Source: a virus. From it: a stretch of 64,000 bases of DNA. Under the pieces are notes generated by a model, which searched no databases, was not told the DNA's origin, and saw only the letters and a list, made by a program, of their open reading frames with translations. Each line of letters begins with the position of its first letter. Positions within the stretch are counted from its first letter, which is position 1. The stretch lies in the IMG/VR virus record IMGVR_UViG_3300029915_000009, positions 1 to 64,000 of that record; one strand, 5' to 3'. The position numbers and the translations under genes are program-made. Below are positions 48,280 to 58,191 of the stretch, piece after piece.

Positions 48280-48504
48280 ATGGATAGACGATTTGTTATG
48301 CAATGCGGCGCCTGTGGCGCACATCTTTATCGGAACTGTTGCAGTGGGTATGATCCGTACGACCGTTGTCCGGCTTGCAGCAAATTTTTGAATACCGGAA
48401 GTCGTTCGTTATCTCTTGTGCGTACTGAGCAATACGTATCTACATCGGTATGGTATAATCCAGGCACATGGTTTTCTGGTAAATGGGTACCAATTGTGAA
48501 CTAA
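48280..48504 (+). CDS. Small zinc-ribbon protein
   Basis: A 74-aa protein with CGACG (residues 9-13) and CPACS (about 31-35), two CxxC pairs typical of a zinc ribbon, followed by a basic beta segment. Function unknown; zinc ribbons of this size often contact nucleic acid or RNA polymerase. Confidence 0.6.
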   Translation: MDRRFVMQCGACGAHLYRNCCSGYDPYDRCPACSKFLNTGSRSLSLVRTEQYVSTSVWYNPGTWFSGKWVPIVN

Positions 48505-48515
48505 GGACATTATAT

Positions 48516-49295
48516 ATGAGAATCATTAAACCCGTTGTTATCGTCGAAGACGACCTCGAAATGCTGTTGCCTAATGGAATGACATTGGCGCAACACATGT
48601 TAAAGAAAATTGAAATGTTTTCCAGAAAGTGTTATAAATCAGAAGGTCGAATGACCGATGATTCCTATCTCACATTTCCCGGTAGACTTTTCAATACAAA
48701 TCGGCATACCGGAATTGCCGAGCATCGAATGATTTCGTCGACATTCATTACAGATCGAGGAGTCTCCCACGAAGGCGTGCGTCACAGAATGGCGGCCTAC
48801 CTGCAGGAAAGTACAAGGTACGTTGATTATGCAAAAGAAGGCGAGTTAAATAAAGGTGCATCATATATTTTGCCACCGTGGGTTAATGAATATTCCTCAG
48901 ATAACAATGATGATTGGGCAGAATTTGTTAGTGATACACGAGCCGATGATTCCCGATACGCAAAATGGCGGACTCGTGGGTGGACCCCAGAAAAGGCTCG
49001 GTATTGGCTTCCTCAAGGCGTGAAGACAGAATATGCTGCAAGTCTAAATTTAGGTAGCTGGTGGAATTTTTTCTATAAACGAACACCGGAAACTGCACAT
49101 CCTTCAATGCGGCAGGTTGCAATTCCATTGCATCAATATTTTGTAAAACATCTTCCGCAATTTTTTGAAAAGTTAACGAATTATGTAGTAGTCGACGATA
49201 GATTTTTGCACAAGGGACAATGGTATCCGATGGCGAAATTAGTTGTTAATCCGTATTACGACCAGGTTGAATTCGAAGAAGTATATTCAGAATAA
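48516..49295 (+). CDS. thyX: Flavin-dependent thymidylate synthase
   Basis: Makes dTMP from dUMP using FAD and methylenetetrahydrofolate. The ThyX signature region reads FITDRGVSHEGVRHR, then AAYLQESTRY, matching RHRxxSxxxxSxRY. The nucleotide-binding arginine region lies in NLGSWWNFFYKRT, with AHPSMRQVAIPL toward the end. The start is taken at 48516 (MRIIKPVVIVEDD); the frame is open 11 codons further upstream. With dut and tdk it completes a thymidylate supply set. Confidence 0.93.
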   Translation: MRIIKPVVIVEDDLEMLLPNGMTLAQHMLKKIEMFSRKCYKSEGRMTDDSYLTFPGRLFNTNRHTGIAEHRMISSTFITDRGVSHEGVRHRMAAYLQESTRYVDYAKEGELNKGASYILPPWVNEYSSDNNDDWAEFVSDTRADDSRYAKWRTRGWTPEKARYWLPQGVKTEYAASLNLGSWWNFFYKRTPETAHPSMRQVAIPLHQYFVKHLPQFFEKLTNYVVVDDRFLHKGQWYPMAKLVVNPYYDQVEFEEVYSE

Positions 49296-50892: not shown

Positions 50893-52212
50893 ATGGTTGA
50901 GATGAATCACAATGCGATGGTAGCACTAGTCACCCTTAAGAATGCGGGATTTGAATCCTACTTCGCGGGTGGTTGCGTGCGAGATTCACTGTTGAATCTT
51001 CCGGTTCATGATTGGGATCTGGCCACGAGTGCAACTCCTGATCAGGTCACCGAATTGTTTTCTACCTCGAAATTGGTTGGTAAGAATTTTGGCGTTTCGG
51101 TTGTTAATGTGAATGGTGAGCAGTTCGAAGTTGCAACCTTCCGCGAGGATGGTGCGTATTCTGACAATCGCCGCCCGGATTCTGTTAAGTTTACAACGGA
51201 TCCTAGGGAAGATGTTAAGCGCCGTGATTTTACAGTCAATGCACTTCTGATGGACGAATCGGGCAAGGTATTTGACTTTGTTAATGGCCTTGCCGACCTC
51301 GAAAATAAGGTTTTGCGCACGGTCGGCAATCCTAGCGATCGGTTTCAAGAAGATGCTTTGCGCCTGCTGCGAGCCGTTCGATTTGCAGCTCGTTTGGGGT
51401 TCATGCTTGATCCGCTTACCGTGTCCGCAATGACATTGCGTTCGAAGGATGTTACGACTTTGCCCGCTGATCGTGTTGCTGGTGAACTGGCAAAGATTCT
51501 TACTGGCGGTAATGTACAGGTAGCTTTTCAGACAATGGACACCACCGGTTTGCTAGTTCATTTTATGCCGGAACTGTGCAATATGCATGGGGTTACGCAG
51601 AATTCAATGTGGCATCCGGAAGGCGATGTGTGGCAGCATACAATGAAGATGCTTTCTATGCTCGAATCCGGCTGCTCTCTTACGTTGGCGCTTGCAACCT
51701 TGCTTCACGATGTAGGGAAGCCGGTCACAGCAAAGACAAATGAAAAGACCGGACATAATCAGTTTCACGGGCATGAGCACGTTGGGGCTCGTATGGCTGA
51801 ACGGCTGCTTCGTGATTTTCGGTTTTCAAATGAAGTTGTCGGCACGGTGTCGTCTTTGGTTGAAAATCATATGCGGTTTTTTAACACGGAAAAGATGTCG
51901 TTGTCAAAGATGAAGCGGTTTGTTCGTATGGAAAATTTTTCTGAACTGCTTGAACTTAACCGGGTTGACAGCCTTGGTAGTAATGGCGATCTCACCGCAA
52001 ACAATTTTTGCCGTGGGTTTCGCGACAACATGAAGGATGAACTTCATCCCGTTCGTTTGCTCACCGGAAACGATTTGCTTGCTATGGGATTTAAGGCAGG
52101 CCCGGTATTCAAGACTTTGCTAGAAGCGGTCGAAACTGCTCAACTCGAAGGCGTAGTTACTACAAGGGAAGAAGCGGTAGCGTTGGTTACCGCTTCTTCC
52201 GGAAAGGTATAA
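50893..52212 (+). CDS. cca: CCA tRNA nucleotidyltransferase with HD domain
   Basis: Adds or repairs the 3' CCA of tRNAs. The head domain has AGGCVRDSLL then VHDWDLATSA (Gly-Gly and Asp-x-Asp catalytic site, residues about 26-48). The flexible loop is EVATFRED, the ERhxxExxx-like motif RRDFTVNALLMDE, and the neck DRFQEDALRLLRAVRFAA. The HD phosphohydrolase part includes HPEGDVWQHTMKML, LLHDVGKP and HGHEHVGA. Length 439 aa is normal for a fused enzyme. No tRNA gene is in the window, but the tmRNA here does not encode its CCA and would be a substrate. Confidence 0.93.
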   Translation: MVEMNHNAMVALVTLKNAGFESYFAGGCVRDSLLNLPVHDWDLATSATPDQVTELFSTSKLVGKNFGVSVVNVNGEQFEVATFREDGAYSDNRRPDSVKFTTDPREDVKRRDFTVNALLMDESGKVFDFVNGLADLENKVLRTVGNPSDRFQEDALRLLRAVRFAARLGFMLDPLTVSAMTLRSKDVTTLPADRVAGELAKILTGGNVQVAFQTMDTTGLLVHFMPELCNMHGVTQNSMWHPEGDVWQHTMKMLSMLESGCSLTLALATLLHDVGKPVTAKTNEKTGHNQFHGHEHVGARMAERLLRDFRFSNEVVGTVSSLVENHMRFFNTEKMSLSKMKRFVRMENFSELLELNRVDSLGSNGDLTANNFCRGFRDNMKDELHPVRLLTGNDLLAMGFKAGPVFKTLLEAVETAQLEGVVTTREEAVALVTASSGKV

Positions 52213-52737: not shown

Positions 52738-52944
52738 ATGCCTGATTTTTACGAACTAACAGGAACGAAGAATAAAAACCCACTATATCGAATTGTAGTT
52801 CAGTCTAGATATTCGGACGACGAATCTTCGGCCTTCGGTAGGAGGATAGTAGTTCAGTATTATCGATTTTATGGGAAGAATTCTCTTAAGGAAGCCGAAG
52901 AGTTTATTCGAGATCGTAATTTGATTGAACGATTTTCTCTATAA
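52738..52944 (+). CDS. Small protein, possible YP-family relative
   Basis: A 68-aa protein. The C-terminus SLKEAEEFIRDRNLIERFSL resembles that of the array proteins (an AEA box followed by LIERLS). The N-terminal YP box is not clear. Function unknown. Confidence 0.55.
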   Translation: MPDFYELTGTKNKNPLYRIVVQSRYSDDESSAFGRRIVVQYYRFYGKNSLKEAEEFIRDRNLIERFSL

Positions 52945-52958
52945 TTTTGGGATGTTGC

Positions 52959-52987
52959 TTGACTTTTCATGCTAAATAGTTTACACT
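52959..52987 (+). promoter_or_regulatory. Early promoter
   Basis: TTGACT, 17 nt, TACACT, upstream of 53023. Confidence 0.65.
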
Positions 52988-53022
52988 GGTAATGTGAGTA
53001 AAATCACAGGAAGCAGGACATT

Positions 53023-53313
53023 ATGAACTGGATGAACGAAATTGATTCTGAAATCGCTATTAAAATTCGTGAAGCAGGTAATCATGTAATTGTTGTACCT
53101 GCGCAAAACAGTTCTGCGCCCATTGATACCTTCGATGTTTATAATGGCGCAACAAATGAATTTATCGCAATTGATGTACCCGAGCAAACAGCCCGCGAGC
53201 TTTCCGCAATCTGGAATGGTCTATTAGATAATGGCGAGCAAGTTTCCAATATTCGAAAAATTAATCTTGCGTGGTTAACTGGTGTTCCTGCGGGAAAGCG
53301 ATATGCAAGGTAA
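53023..53313 (+). CDS. Small early protein of unknown function
   Basis: A 96-aa protein (MNWMNEIDSEIAIKIREAGN, VIVVPAQNSSAPIDTFDVY, WLTGVPAGKRYAR). It overlaps the next gene by 11 nt. Not recognised. Confidence 0.58.
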   Translation: MNWMNEIDSEIAIKIREAGNHVIVVPAQNSSAPIDTFDVYNGATNEFIAIDVPEQTARELSAIWNGLLDNGEQVSNIRKINLAWLTGVPAGKRYAR

Positions 53314-53543
53314 GAAGAAAATTTCTTTAAACTTTGCATTTGGTAAGATTTGTAGGCCGCCTATCTGGGATGGGTATCGCGCCGCATTTAAATTGTTGCC
53401 GAAGGAAAATGAAAAATATCCTGTGGAAATTAAACATTATGATATAAAAACCGGTATGCTTATTGCCCCCGGTGACATATGCAATATATGATTCATTGAA
53501 AGAAGCCGAATCAGCGATTTTAATCGAAAGCTTATCAGAATAA
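53303..53543 (+). pseudogene. Small YP-family-like gene with frameshift
   Basis: From the ATG at 53303 (MQGKKKISLNFAFGK) the frame stops near 53491. In the +1 shifted frame the sequence continues VTYAIYDSLKEAESAILIES and ends LSE, the family C-terminus. The shift falls at a run of five C (53466-53470). It is either a real frameshift or a homopolymer sequencing error. Confidence 0.55.
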
Positions 53544-53554
53544 GAAAGGATATT

Positions 53555-53722
53555 ATGAAGCAGAAGACATCTGAATTTGAAACGACCAAGGCCGCCCTTG
53601 ATTTTATTGATTCTCTCAGAAAAGAAAAAGTTGCCGGATATCTAAATTTGTCAAAAAATAAAGATGGCAGTTATGCCTGGTTGGTGACGTACACTCCCAA
53701 GAAAGGTATGAAATTTGAATAG
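53555..53722 (+). CDS. Small protein (55 aa)
   Basis: The frame reads MKQKTSEFETTKAALDFIDS, ends TPKKGMKFE, and has an AAAGGA ribosome site 7 nt before the ATG. It is short but well placed in the run of small genes. Function unknown. Confidence 0.55.
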   Translation: MKQKTSEFETTKAALDFIDSLRKEKVAGYLNLSKNKDGSYAWLVTYTPKKGMKFE

Positions 53723-53942
53723 GTGTGATAAATCCGAGGTGAATTACCACTTCATTGTGAAAACTTCCTTGAAGATCGTTAAAGATGATCGGGTAGATAA
53801 TAAATGGAACGTTATTAAAACCTACGATTTTTCAAATAGTCGAAATCCATGCGACGAGTGTATTCCTCCTACGGTTATTCATTCGTGCTCTACAAAAAAG
53901 GAAGCAGAAGATTGGTTATTGCTCGAAAGATTAAGTATGTAG
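53715..53942 (+). CDS. Small YP-family-like protein
   Basis: A 75-aa protein starting at TTG 53715, which overlaps the previous stop. FIVKTSLKIVKDDRV in the N-terminal half, NPCDECIPP with CxxC in the middle, and STKKEAEDWLLLERLSM at the end, the family C-terminal box. Function unknown. Confidence 0.5.
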   Translation: MNRCDKSEVNYHFIVKTSLKIVKDDRVDNKWNVIKTYDFSNSRNPCDECIPPTVIHSCSTKKEAEDWLLLERLSM

Positions 53943-53950
53943 TAATAAGT

Positions 53951-53970
53951 CCGAATCCTTTCTGATTCGG
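53951..53970 (+). terminator. Hairpin after the small-gene run
   Basis: CCGAATC, 6-nt loop, GATTCGG, without a T tract. The following 240 nt hold no certain gene. Confidence 0.4.
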
Positions 53971-54067
53971 TGGTGGAGGCGGCGCATGTTGATTATCGCT
54001 TCGTGCGCCCCCAATTTTAAATATGAAAAATAATATGATTTTATGCAGTTGATTTAAAAGAATTAAG

Positions 54068-54229
54068 ATGGTATCGAGCTCGAGGATAGAAATCGATATC
54101 CTGAATGGAGTATCACCGATTGCAAATATTCTTAAATTAGACTTATTTAAGGTGTATCATATTTGTAAGGCGCAAATACCAACGTTCGATATCTTCTTAA
54201 TATTAGGAGTGATATGCGACAATTTTTAA
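54068..54229 (+). CDS. Possible small helix-turn-helix protein (53 aa)
   Basis: The frame reads IEIDILNGVSPIANILKLDL and FKVYHICKAQIPTF, which recalls a short helix-turn-helix (NGVSPIANIL plus recognition-like helix). No clear ribosome site, and it overlaps the next gene by 16 nt. It may be chance. Confidence 0.3.
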   Translation: MVSSSRIEIDILNGVSPIANILKLDLFKVYHICKAQIPTFDIFLILGVICDNF

Positions 54230-54495
54230 TCGATTTTCTGAAAGCAGTAGAAGCCGATATTCCGCCGCCGGCGCGTTGCCATCATGTATTGACCTACGCT
54301 AGATATGGTAGTAATGACACCGGTTGGGAAGATAAGCTCGCTCTTCAAATTAATGATGCCGGAGATTTTAAGTGCTTTTTCCTAGAGGATTCCGACTTGT
54401 TAGATATACCTAAATTAATAATCGAAATTAAAGAGAGTTTGAATTCATCAGACACCGGCCAATTAGGTGTTAGTATTGGGCAATATGTAAAATAA
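54214..54495 (+). CDS. Small protein of unknown function
   Basis: A 93-aa protein (MRQFLIDFLKAVEADIPPPA, ALQINDAGDFKCFFLED). AGGAGTG ribosome site, monocistronic look. Not recognised. Confidence 0.6.
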   Translation: MRQFLIDFLKAVEADIPPPARCHHVLTYARYGSNDTGWEDKLALQINDAGDFKCFFLEDSDLLDIPKLIIEIKESLNSSDTGQLGVSIGQYVK

Positions 54496-54499
54496 GTTG

Positions 54500-54528
54500 T
54501 TGCTATATTTTTATTATTGTTGTATACT
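54500..54528 (+). promoter_or_regulatory. Promoter of the GIY-YIG/tmRNA unit
   Basis: TTGCTA, 17 nt, TATACT, then a GAGGAA ribosome site and the GTG at 54550. The tmRNA downstream probably shares this transcript. Confidence 0.6.
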
Positions 54529-54549
54529 ATAAATATTGAGGAAATAAAA

Positions 54550-55209
54550 GTGAATATTAAGGTTAATTGGAATTCGATTGATTCGCTGAAAGGTAAAGTT
54601 CGATATTTAAAATCTAGAATTCGAGCGTTAGAAAAGAATGGTCTAGGAGCGGAGAATATCGTTAGGCAGGGTCCAAAATTCGAAGCATATAATTCTATAT
54701 GGAATTCCGATATTAGCTCGATTTATGAAGATTTAGAATTATCAAACGAAAAGAAATATTTTGTGTATGCTCACTTGAATCCATTGTTTGATCTTGATTT
54801 AGAAAAAGCAAAAGACGCGTTTGCCGCTAGCCTGGGTATGGAGTATGTTCCTTTTTATATAGGAAAAGGAGTAAATGATCGTGATAAAAATTCGCGGCGA
54901 AATGAAACACATCGAAAAATTTTGCAATCTATAAATTCGTTAAATGAAAAGCATATAGTATTTCGAGTTAAAGGAAGTTTAACTGAAGCAGAAGCATTTC
55001 AAGCTGAATCTAAATTAATCGATATTTTTGGACTTTTAACTAATGGTGGTTTATTAACTAATTTGGATGAAGGGCATCATGCAATACTCAGAAAAAGATT
55101 ATATCGGGATCATCTTAAGACATTGTGTACTAATTCAGTCGGTTATGCAAAAGTAATGAAAGAATTGTATTCGAAACCAATTATGATCAACGAAAAAAAA
55201 TTTGCATAA
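54550..55209 (+). CDS. GIY-YIG endonuclease
   Basis: 219 aa from GTG 54550 (GAGGAA ribosome site); the frame is open 11 codons upstream, but that part overlaps the promoter. The domain lies from about residue 75: FVYAHLNPL (the G-Y position), VPFYIGKG (YIG), then RDKNSRRNETHRKILQSI, LTEAEAFQAESKLIDIFG (catalytic Glu) and GGLLTNLDEG. This resembles phage homing endonucleases of the GIY-YIG type. A coiled N-terminal region precedes it. The stop is one base before the tmRNA acceptor piece, so it may be a homing nuclease associated with the tmRNA locus. Confidence 0.8.
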   Translation: MNIKVNWNSIDSLKGKVRYLKSRIRALEKNGLGAENIVRQGPKFEAYNSIWNSDISSIYEDLELSNEKKYFVYAHLNPLFDLDLEKAKDAFAASLGMEYVPFYIGKGVNDRDKNSRRNETHRKILQSINSLNEKHIVFRVKGSLTEAEAFQAESKLIDIFGLLTNGGLLTNLDEGHHAILRKRLYRDHLKTLCTNSVGYAKVMKELYSKPIMINEKKFA

Positions 55210-55272
55210 GTTAGAGTCGTACGAAGCATGAATTTCTTTATGCGGACCGGAGTTCAACTCTCCGCGCGTCCA

Positions 55273-55341
55273 AAAGAATACTGAACTAGTTAGATAGTTT
55301 CGTATTAGATGGATGTGGTGTTACACCCCAGTATTCTACTA
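55273..55341 (+). other. tmRNA intervening segment
   Basis: Joins the mature 3' end to the mature 5' end and would be removed. AGAATACTG (55275-55283) and its exact complement CAGTATTCT (55330-55338) extend the acceptor stem, as in permuted tmRNA precursors. Confidence 0.8.
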
Positions 55342-55457
55342 GGGCGCGTCACGGTTTCGACGGATAAATGAAAGTCATGTGGACGGCTTGGGTCTTTGTT
55401 ATTTTCGCCCATAATTGAAAAATGATATGTATAATTGCCGATTCAATCGTCAATGGC

Positions 55458-55517
55458 GCGACCAAGATTTTTACGTACCCTGTAAAAATTAGCAATCGCG
55501 AGCTCGCACTAGCCTAA
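55458..55517 (+). other. tmRNA tag reading frame
   Basis: With GCG as resume codon the tag is ATKIFTYPVKISNRELALA plus TAA. Resumption one to two codons earlier (AAT or GGC) is possible, since GTC, which precedes AAT, resembles the usual upstream context. The C-terminal ALA fits proteolysis tags. Confidence 0.65.
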
Positions 55518-55575
55518 AAACTGTGCGCCGTAGGGTGACCCCGCCTATGTAAAAGAAACGGGGTATACAAATTGT

Positions 55576-55737
55576 ATGAATACTGAATATACATATGAAA
55601 TTTTGCCACCTATATTAATATGCGATAGATGGCTAGTTTATCGCTTAGATTATCGAGGGCTCGCCCAATTTTTACGAGTATTTGATACTGAAATCGAAGC
55701 TAAAAATTATATTTTGATAGAAAAATTATCCGAATGA
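55576..55737 (+). CDS. Small YP-family-like protein (array 3)
   Basis: A 53-aa protein (MNTEYTYEILPPILICDRWL) ending EIEAKNYILIEKLSE. It overlaps the next gene as ATGA. This third array uses the C-terminal form AEAxxxLLIxKLSE. Confidence 0.6.
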   Translation: MNTEYTYEILPPILICDRWLVYRLDYRGLAQFLRVFDTEIEAKNYILIEKLSE

Positions 55738-55970
55738 ATCTTGATACCAAATTAATAATTGAGATGTGCAAAAATTTTACGTTTTCCGAGATACAGCCAT
55801 TGCCGAAATTAATTAGAGAATATCGAATAGAAGAGCTGGGTAATTGGTATGGAATTCAAACTCGATTTCATTCAATATTGCGGGGCGGCTGGTATTATCT
55901 TAGCCCAGAGTTATATACAACGAAGGAAGAAGCGGAAGCTGCATTACTAATTTTAAAATTGTCCGAATAA
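55734..55970 (+). CDS. Small YP-family-like protein (array 3)
   Basis: A 78-aa protein ending KEEAEAALLILKLSE, with ELGNWYGIQTRFHSILRGGW in the middle. ATGA overlap with the gene before. Function unknown. Confidence 0.65.
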   Translation: MNLDTKLIIEMCKNFTFSEIQPLPKLIREYRIEELGNWYGIQTRFHSILRGGWYYLSPELYTTKEEAEAALLILKLSE

Positions 55971-55991
55971 TAAAACAGATTGGATTCACAA

Positions 55992-56243
55992 ATGAATGAA
56001 ACAAAATATCAAATTGGAGATCGGGTTGTAGTATACGGCAATATTTTTGATAGGTTTTCCGCTCGCACGCGAGAAGAGTGCATAGTAATGGCGTGTACTA
56101 ATACCAACCGTTGTTATAAAATACGAAGTTGCCGTATGCATAGAGTATTCTTTTTCCCGTTAGAACGATGGATAGACACGGTAGATATTTATGGCCGAAT
56201 TGCCACGGTGAGCGATCAACTAGATGATCGACTATCAGAATGA
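55992..56243 (+). CDS. Small protein (array 3)
   Basis: An 83-aa protein from the ATG at 55992 (MNETKYQIGDRVVVYGNIFD), a small beta-barrel-like start, ending SDQLDDRLSE like the array proteins. Function unknown. Confidence 0.6.
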   Translation: MNETKYQIGDRVVVYGNIFDRFSARTREECIVMACTNTNRCYKIRSCRMHRVFFFPLERWIDTVDIYGRIATVSDQLDDRLSE

Positions 56244-56395
56244 AATATAAGATAGAAAGTTATAAAACTATAACCGGGCTAATTAGATGGTGTATACGTC
56301 CTTATTTTAATGGACAATGGTATGTACGATCTGGCCCGTTTGCATCTGAAGCAGAAGCCAATTCTGCATTATTGATTATGAAATTATCCGAGTAA
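56240..56395 (+). CDS. Small YP-family-like protein (array 3)
   Basis: A 51-aa protein starting at the ATG overlapping the previous stop (MKYKIESYKTITGLIRWCIR) and ending SEAEANSALLIMKLSE. Its last 30 nt are nearly identical to the end of the next gene, a sign of recent duplication. Confidence 0.62.
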   Translation: MKYKIESYKTITGLIRWCIRPYFNGQWYVRSGPFASEAEANSALLIMKLSE

Positions 56396-56397
56396 TT

Positions 56398-56592
56398 ATG
56401 CCAAAACTTCAATCAACCTGGTATCTATCAGATGCCGTTGTTAACGCATATCCTACTAGAATATATCCAGCCGAAGGCAATACATTTGGTATTCAAGTTA
56501 ACATGCTTGAAGATTGGTTTTGGTTGAAGGATCGATATATTACTGCTCACGAAGCCAAGTCTGCATTATTGATTATGAAATTATCTGAATAA
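56398..56592 (+). CDS. Small YP-family-like protein (array 3, last gene)
   Basis: A 64-aa protein with VVNAYPTRIYPAEGN near the start (the YP box) and AHEAKSALLIMKLSE at the end. It links the array-3 C-terminus to the array-1 N-terminus. Function unknown. Confidence 0.66.
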   Translation: MPKLQSTWYLSDAVVNAYPTRIYPAEGNTFGIQVNMLEDWFWLKDRYITAHEAKSALLIMKLSE

Positions 56593-56602
56593 GAAAGATG
56601 TA

Positions 56603-57175
56603 ATGACAAAGAATTTATCATCACAAAAAATTAGTTTTATGGATTTAGAAATGTTATGCTGGCCGGATGGAAAATGCCCATTGGGCCAATCGAAGCATAT
56701 CATTCAAGTCGGTATATGTGAAATTGACTCATACGATTTGAAAATTACTCGAACAGCTAATTATTATATTCGTCCGAATTATAAAGATTTTGAAGTATCT
56801 GAGTATTGTACTAACCTCACCGGAATAACAAAAGAATTATTATTAAAAGAAGGGAGACGATTTTCGGATGTTATGAATACCATTCGAAATGAATTTTCTC
56901 CGCGAGGAAAAGTTTCTTACGCATGGGGATCGGACAATGATGCTATCATTGAGCAATGTTTAAAAGATAATATTGAAAATCCTTGGGGTAATACCGGTAT
57001 TTGGGATTTGGGTGTTATTTTTCGAAGTAACTATTCGATCAAGAAAAAATTGACGTTAGCAAATGCGTTAAAATATCTTCATTTAACATTCGAAGGAAAA
57101 CCGCATAGCGCAGTAACGGATGCTATTAATTTAGGAAGGCTGCATATTGAAATGATTCGAAAGATTCGAGGATAA
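56603..57175 (+). CDS. DEDDh 3'-5' exonuclease (ERI-1/RNase T-like)
   Basis: A 190-aa nuclease. Motif I is ISFMDLEMLCW (Asp and Glu), followed by IIQVGICEID. YIRPNYK and YCTNLTGIT are typical of the ERI-1/KapD-type fold. Motif II lies in YAWGSDNDAI and motif III is HSAVTDAINLGRL with His and Asp. It likely trims single-stranded RNA or DNA ends. It follows array 3 by 10 nt. Confidence 0.83.
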   Translation: MTKNLSSQKISFMDLEMLCWPDGKCPLGQSKHIIQVGICEIDSYDLKITRTANYYIRPNYKDFEVSEYCTNLTGITKELLLKEGRRFSDVMNTIRNEFSPRGKVSYAWGSDNDAIIEQCLKDNIENPWGNTGIWDLGVIFRSNYSIKKKLTLANALKYLHLTFEGKPHSAVTDAINLGRLHIEMIRKIRG

Positions 57176-57642: not shown

Positions 57643-58191
57643 ATGAATATTATTTCAAAAGAAATTCGAATAGATTACGGCCACCGAGTGGCAAGACACC
57701 AAAATGCAGAAGGCGGACCAGGGAAATGTTCATCCTGTCACGGGCATTCGGGTGTGATTATTGCAGAAATGGTGGGTGAGTTATTCGGTAGCGGCCCGCA
57801 AACTGAAATGGTTCTTGATTATGGAATTCTTAAAAATTTAATGATGACCCATATTGATGCAATGTGCGATCATGCCATGATTATTTCCTTACAAGATGCG
57901 AAGTATGTTGGTCTGGCATATGAAGAGTCCTTGCCCTCAGCTAAGGGCATTATCTTTTCTGATTGGGTAAATAAAATTACGGAAACTGTTCGACAACATT
58001 CGTTTTGGTCAGGAAAAACTGCATTTGGTAAAACATATATTATTAATGAGTTTCCTACGGCGGAATCTTTGGCAGAACATTTTTTCTATATACTAGCGCC
58101 GCAAATTTTAGAAGCCACAAATAAACAGGCATACCTTACCGGTGTTACTTTTAAGGAAACGCCAACTTCTGTTGCAATTTATCGTCCATAG
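57643..58191 (+). CDS. queD: 6-carboxy-5,6,7,8-tetrahydropterin synthase (QueD)
   Basis: Second step of 7-deazaguanine (preQ0) synthesis. Zinc ligands are in DYGHRVARHQ and SCHGHSGVI (HGH); the catalytic CDHAMII and EFPTAESLAEHFF follow, as in QueD/PTPS. 182 aa includes an insert of about 45 residues before EFPT. Phages use the pathway to modify G in their DNA against restriction, or to support queuosine in tRNA. The other pathway genes (folE, queE, queC, DpdA-like) are not in the window. Confidence 0.9.
   Translation: MNIISKEIRIDYGHRVARHQNAEGGPGKCSSCHGHSGVIIAEMVGELFGSGPQTEMVLDYGILKNLMMTHIDAMCDHAMIISLQDAKYVGLAYEESLPSAKGIIFSDWVNKITETVRQHSFWSGKTAFGKTYIINEFPTAESLAEHFFYILAPQILEATNKQAYLTGVTFKETPTSVAIYRP

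Follow-up and report, generated by a model that had tools for sequence, protein, structure and literature searches.

The 64-kb stretch of DNA analysed here (the window), which forms the start of the 105,056-bp virus record IMGVR_UViG_3300029915_000009, carries an intact, phage-encoded gene for a circularly permuted tmRNA that has been passed down in a jumbo-myophage clade. The complete gene spans positions 55211-55565 on the plus strand and was recovered by two independent programs, Rfam and ARAGORN. The Rfam family RF04321 matched 55215-55517 (+) over the full length of the model with 60.3 bits (E = 3.5e-9, computed over 64 kb and 4227 families; gathering score 47 bits), and ARAGORN returned a permuted tmRNA whose form and tag, ADSIVNGATKIFTYPVKISNRELALA, are consistent with the Rfam result. 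The score is low compared to other phage copies, which reach up to 132 bits. A preliminary description, made from the letters alone, had proposed a permuted tmRNA encoded by a phage and had named a covariance model that includes permuted forms as one way to check it. Both parts of that proposal held: the gene sits in a virus record, its acceptor piece precedes its coding piece, and the model scores above its cut-off. As the region is carried by three IMG/VR assemblies with 0 mismatches and no polymorphism between them, the gene is not an assembly error.

Table 1 Features of the tmRNA gene and two upstream neighbours; positions are those of the window.
Feature	Position	Strand	Contents and basis
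Predicted CCA-adding tRNA nucleotidyltransferase of the phage, 439 aa	50893..52212	+	about 3 kb upstream of the tmRNA, same strand
GIY-YIG / homing-endonuclease-like ORF	54517..55209	+	stops immediately upstream of the tmRNA
Acceptor (3') piece	55211..55272	+	P2 3' strands, T arm, 3' acceptor strand, discriminator A73; RF04321, ARAGORN and cofold of the two pieces; 5' end approximate
T arm	55248-55264	+	stem CGGAG/CTCCG, loop TTCAACT
3' acceptor strand	55265-55271	+	CGCGTCC, then discriminator A73 at 55272
Intervening segment, 69 nt	55273..55341	+	9-bp closing helix; fold; removal by tRNA-processing enzymes presumed
Coding (5') piece	55342..55565	+	5' acceptor strand, D-loop motif GGTTTCGACGG, P2 5' strands, tag frame, 3' hairpin; RF04321 and cofold; 3' end inferred from the hairpin
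5' acceptor strand	55342-55348	+	GGGCGCG; 3' of the acceptor piece in gene order
Tag frame	55437..55517	+	GCC...GCC TAA; ARAGORN; resume and stop context

The piece ends given by the preliminary description, 55272 and 55342, proved exact by homology, and all seven pairs of the predicted acceptor stem form, including the G-U third pair (G3-U70). CCA is not encoded; the discriminator A at 55272 is followed by AAA. When the two predicted mature pieces were cofolded freely, they formed the acceptor stem, the T arm and a long P2 duplex at -49.4 kcal/mol, compared to a mean of -40.4 for shuffled sequences (z = -2.4; 3 of 200 shuffles were equally good). The tmRNA pieces of a diverged relative, G008 (IMGVR_UViG_3300024331_000007, 360 kb), cofold likewise (z = -1.7). 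The 69-nt intervening segment is indeed closed by the 9-bp helix of the preliminary description (AGAATACTG/CAGTATTCT), and only 5 of 20,000 dinucleotide shuffles produced one. Conservation is lacking, as the intervening segment of the G008 orthologue is 24 nt long.

Covariation was assessed on eight distinct phage tmRNAs with 12 acceptor and T-stem pairs each. All cells were paired (96/96), and changes on both sides, hence compensatory, occurred at 8 of the 12 pairs. The covariation score was reached by none of 500 shuffles, and sliding the alignment by one column abolished the signal. G3-U70, the ordinary alanine identity element, is present in all eight tmRNAs compared and is therefore not the peculiarity that the preliminary description had made of it.

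The kin of the record are jumbo myophages of the RaK2/PA5oct/Atu_ph07 type. With respect to the host, the core genes indicate jumbo phages that infect proteobacteria, and the predicted CCA-adding enzyme indicates an acidobacterial phage; a search of bacterial genomes with this enzyme gave a single, irrelevant match in Bacteroidota, and the putative tail fibre gave no match. Among 45 whole records of baseplate relatives drawn from IMG/VR and searched with RF04321, nine scored above the cut-off. Used as a DNA query against 50,697 phage records, the tmRNA gave no match. In G008, the tmRNA is located between orthologues of the window ORFs 53023-53313 and 56603-57175. As the flanking orthologues are the same despite a protein identity of only about 50-68%, the two tmRNAs are most simply one gene inherited in place. 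Both share, in addition to the locus, G3-U70 and a 26-aa tag without final Ala-Ala. G008 differs in encoding CCA, in its short intervening segment, in lacking a CCA-adding enzyme and in having an endonuclease-like ORF on the opposite side of the tmRNA. A nearer relative, L152, possesses the flanking genes and the CCA-adding enzyme, but no tmRNA at the locus or anywhere in its 125-kb record, which is most simply explained by loss. The tmRNA thus seems dispensable, and the enzyme occurs independently of it. Small ORFs lie in a row on both sides of the tmRNA (52738-56592) and also occur in L152; these form a paralogous family with the C-terminal motif AxxxLLIxKLSE or close to it. Also nearby are a QueD/6-pyruvoyl-tetrahydropterin-synthase-like ORF (57643-58191) and one for an FAD-dependent thymidylate synthase, ThyX (48483-49295).

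tmRNA tags usually, although not by definition, end in an Ala-Ala degron. The window tag comprises 26 aa and terminates in -LALA without a final Ala-Ala, and that of G008, AVNNSGRNAEIATYTVALNRVAVPVA (ARAGORN), has the same length and ends in VPVA, so the tag was rightly called unusual. In the Rfam alignment, the window is one codon short ahead of the last alanine. The amino-acid sequence is barely conserved between the window and G008; common to both are the resume context TATAATT-GC and the stop context TAGCCTAAAAACT. Two further tags, both missed by ARAGORN, were read by hand: ANSNKWYDVADFGFTSEVAELATA (24 aa) in the sister records G011 and G012, and AKNSPVVRGTAKVLSFARKFVPAVSSTRAFAMAA (34 aa) in Tunturiibacter phage Tunturi_5. 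The frame is uninterrupted in all of these, and between G011 and G012 the stop codon alternates between TAG and TAA with termination kept. Other relatives have ordinary 10-aa tags, e.g. ANDSVYALAA, and tags ending in LAANA and VAVNA occur in two further phages. In two IMG/VR contigs with a peroxiredoxin gene (L092 and L111), the permuted tmRNA has a 28-aa tag that contains the usual tag start twice (ANDDSF...VANDSRFALAA).

A tag ending in LALA differs from the usual form, and the tagged proteins may be degraded differently. We regard it as rather unlikely that several jumbo-phage lineages have independently lost the Ala-Ala end (LALA, VPVA, LATA, LAANA and VAVNA, with phage tags alone compared), so that ribosomes would be freed without sending the tagged proteins to host ClpXP, or with the proteins sent to another protease. 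Mycoplasma tags ending in AFA are read by Lon; their likeness to the phage tags is an idea only.

The upstream ORF 50893-52212 contains PolyA_pol head and RNA-binding domains (PF01743, E = 2e-36, and PF12627, both above cut-off). Its best NCBIfam model is the CCA transferase with 285.7 bits (cut-off 290) versus 190.7 for PcnB, and it matches the CCA-adding enzyme of PDB entry 6ibp with E = 6e-54; the closest phage kin is the enzyme of Tunturi_5 (46.6%). Such an enzyme matches the absence of an encoded CCA. The pairing with the tmRNA is suggestive only, as the host enzyme could serve as well. In G011, CCA is likewise not encoded, and there is no CCA-adding enzyme within its 46-kb fragment. A dedicated module of tmRNA and CCA-adding enzyme is weakened as an idea by L152, with the enzyme and no tmRNA, and by G008, with the tmRNA and no enzyme. 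SmpB was not found in 54 phage records, including the complete genomes of Tunturi_5 and Phosso.

Two-piece phage tmRNAs as such are already known. A published survey found tmRNA in 402 of 18,146 phages, with 133 distinct structures of which 53 are two-piece, and reported two-piece phage tmRNAs together with phage Melnitz (PMC9004378); the window tmRNA hence belongs to a known kind, and it is the clade-specific features that stand out. The earlier statement that a phage copy is rare has to be softened in view of these numbers and of the positive records among the relatives. The tmRNA database holds 79 phage sequences (PMC11915505), tmRNA, SmpB and CCA-adding enzymes are all known from huge phages (PMC7162821), and tmRNA is present in a Sinorhizobium jumbo phage (PMC11242549). 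Compared to the RF04321 family, the window tmRNA shares gene order, G3-U70 acceptor, T arm, D-loop motif, P2, alanine resume codon and stop, but has a longer tag, no encoded CCA and no Ala-Ala end. A bacterial source by way of the alphaproteobacterial or cyanobacterial models was rejected: the former gave no match at E = 1e-3 and the latter only a partial one (28 bits). Methylophilales phage Melnitz and Pelagibacter phage Mosig also encode a tmRNA, that of Melnitz in two pieces; they are marine and have a glutamine riboswitch (PMC9004378). The window comes from a jumbo-type myophage, and the Rfam search found no riboswitch in it.

Among named phages, Tunturi_5 (309 kb, Acidobacteriota host) has a permuted tmRNA at 157899-158195 (86.4 bits) that is absent from the deposited annotation and goes unmentioned in the Tunturi paper (PMC11924767). 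It resembles the window phage in the permuted tmRNA, the long tag and the CCA-adding enzyme, but its tag ends in AMAA, CCA is encoded, and it has homologues for only five ORFs of the window phage. Sinorhizobium phage Phosso (L108) has a permuted tmRNA at 349596-350198 (113.3 bits), likewise missing from the deposited annotation; this tmRNA has a non-standard T loop and an intervening segment of about 400 nt with a long inverted repeat (CCCATCATAACAACATG plus the complementary sequence). Searches of the whole records of Atu_ph07, Paride, XaC1 and RaK2 for a permuted tmRNA were negative. In two further records, L172 (G026, IMGVR_UViG_3300025789_000024) and L180 (IMGVR_UViG_3300032282_001105), the intervening segment measures 342 nt and encloses a whole gene for a 101-aa protein. 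The two versions of this ORF differ at 14, 14 and 39 first, second and third codon positions, so that it looks coding and under selection; the tmRNA halves on both sides of it remain able to pair and keep G3-U70. Within the intervening segments of L179 and L181 (93-96 nt), short hydrophobic reading frames (MIEAIGFFVTLLVLMWIATILGEIFF; MENFSKWIVIFVIMLFILHEMTS) resemble those of small membrane peptides.

These findings are best explained, with good probability, by an intact inherited tmRNA that is processed, charged and used with host factors to rescue ribosomes in infection. By analogy to the family, host tRNA-processing enzymes would cut the precursor at 55272/55273 and 55341/55342, the phage's own or the host CCA-adding enzyme would put CCA on the acceptor piece, and host alanyl-tRNA synthetase would charge it via G3-U70. 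Together with host SmpB, the tmRNA would then enter stalled ribosomes, move translation onto the 26-codon tag frame and free the ribosomes at TAA. The preliminary description had offered rescue, competition with the host tmRNA and tagging of host proteins, among which rescue is the most economical; its likely use would be to keep ribosomes free when infection leaves mRNAs broken.

The absence of a phage SmpB would also suit a decoy that ties up SmpB, AlaRS or stalled ribosomes and thereby blocks host trans-translation. There is precedent for this, since the tag-less tmRNA of mycobacteriophage DS6A, expressed in E. coli, inhibits the host tmRNA (PMC11915505). However, the DS6A-type RNA has no tag frame, whereas here diverged relatives preserve the frame together with its resume context and stop, and we therefore consider a decoy very unlikely.

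Alternatively, the tmRNA may owe its persistence chiefly to an adjacent homing endonuclease that moves the locus from phage to phage, with slight benefit to the carrier. In the window, G008, G042 and G024, homing-endonuclease-like ORFs overlap the tmRNA or lie almost against it, on one side or the other and on either strand (raw adjacency; the GIY-YIG reading in G008 was made by eye), and L152 lacks both tmRNA and endonuclease. Yet the window ORF is assigned to its family only weakly (E = 3.6e-5 to PHROG 314, homing endonuclease; E = 9e-4 to Pfam PF22945, under cut-off), the tmRNAs of G018, G011/G012, Phosso and Tunturi_5 have no such neighbour, and compensatory changes maintain the tmRNA structure, which makes such a passenger an unlikely account. 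The low covariance-model score, the loss of an encoded CCA and the frequent use of tmRNA genes as integration sites (PMC11915505) would fit a host tmRNA picked up by mistake, whether as a copy in decay or as what is left of an integration site. This highly improbable origin is largely refuted by the synteny with G008 and by covariation with 0 broken pairs in a complete gene. Rescue of ribosomes in infected cells, with the help of host factors, thus remains the most likely role.

The odd tag ending and the neighbouring genes make the window tmRNA a good test case for how phages use such an RNA. Tunturi_5 adds a cultured jumbo phage to the clade's material, and its acidobacterial host lies outside all three lineages with described permuted tmRNA (PMC9004378). 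For the reason why phages carry a ribosome-rescue RNA, the clade offers tags without the usual degradation signal and a natural comparison of the same locus with tmRNA, as in the window and G008, and without it, as in L152.
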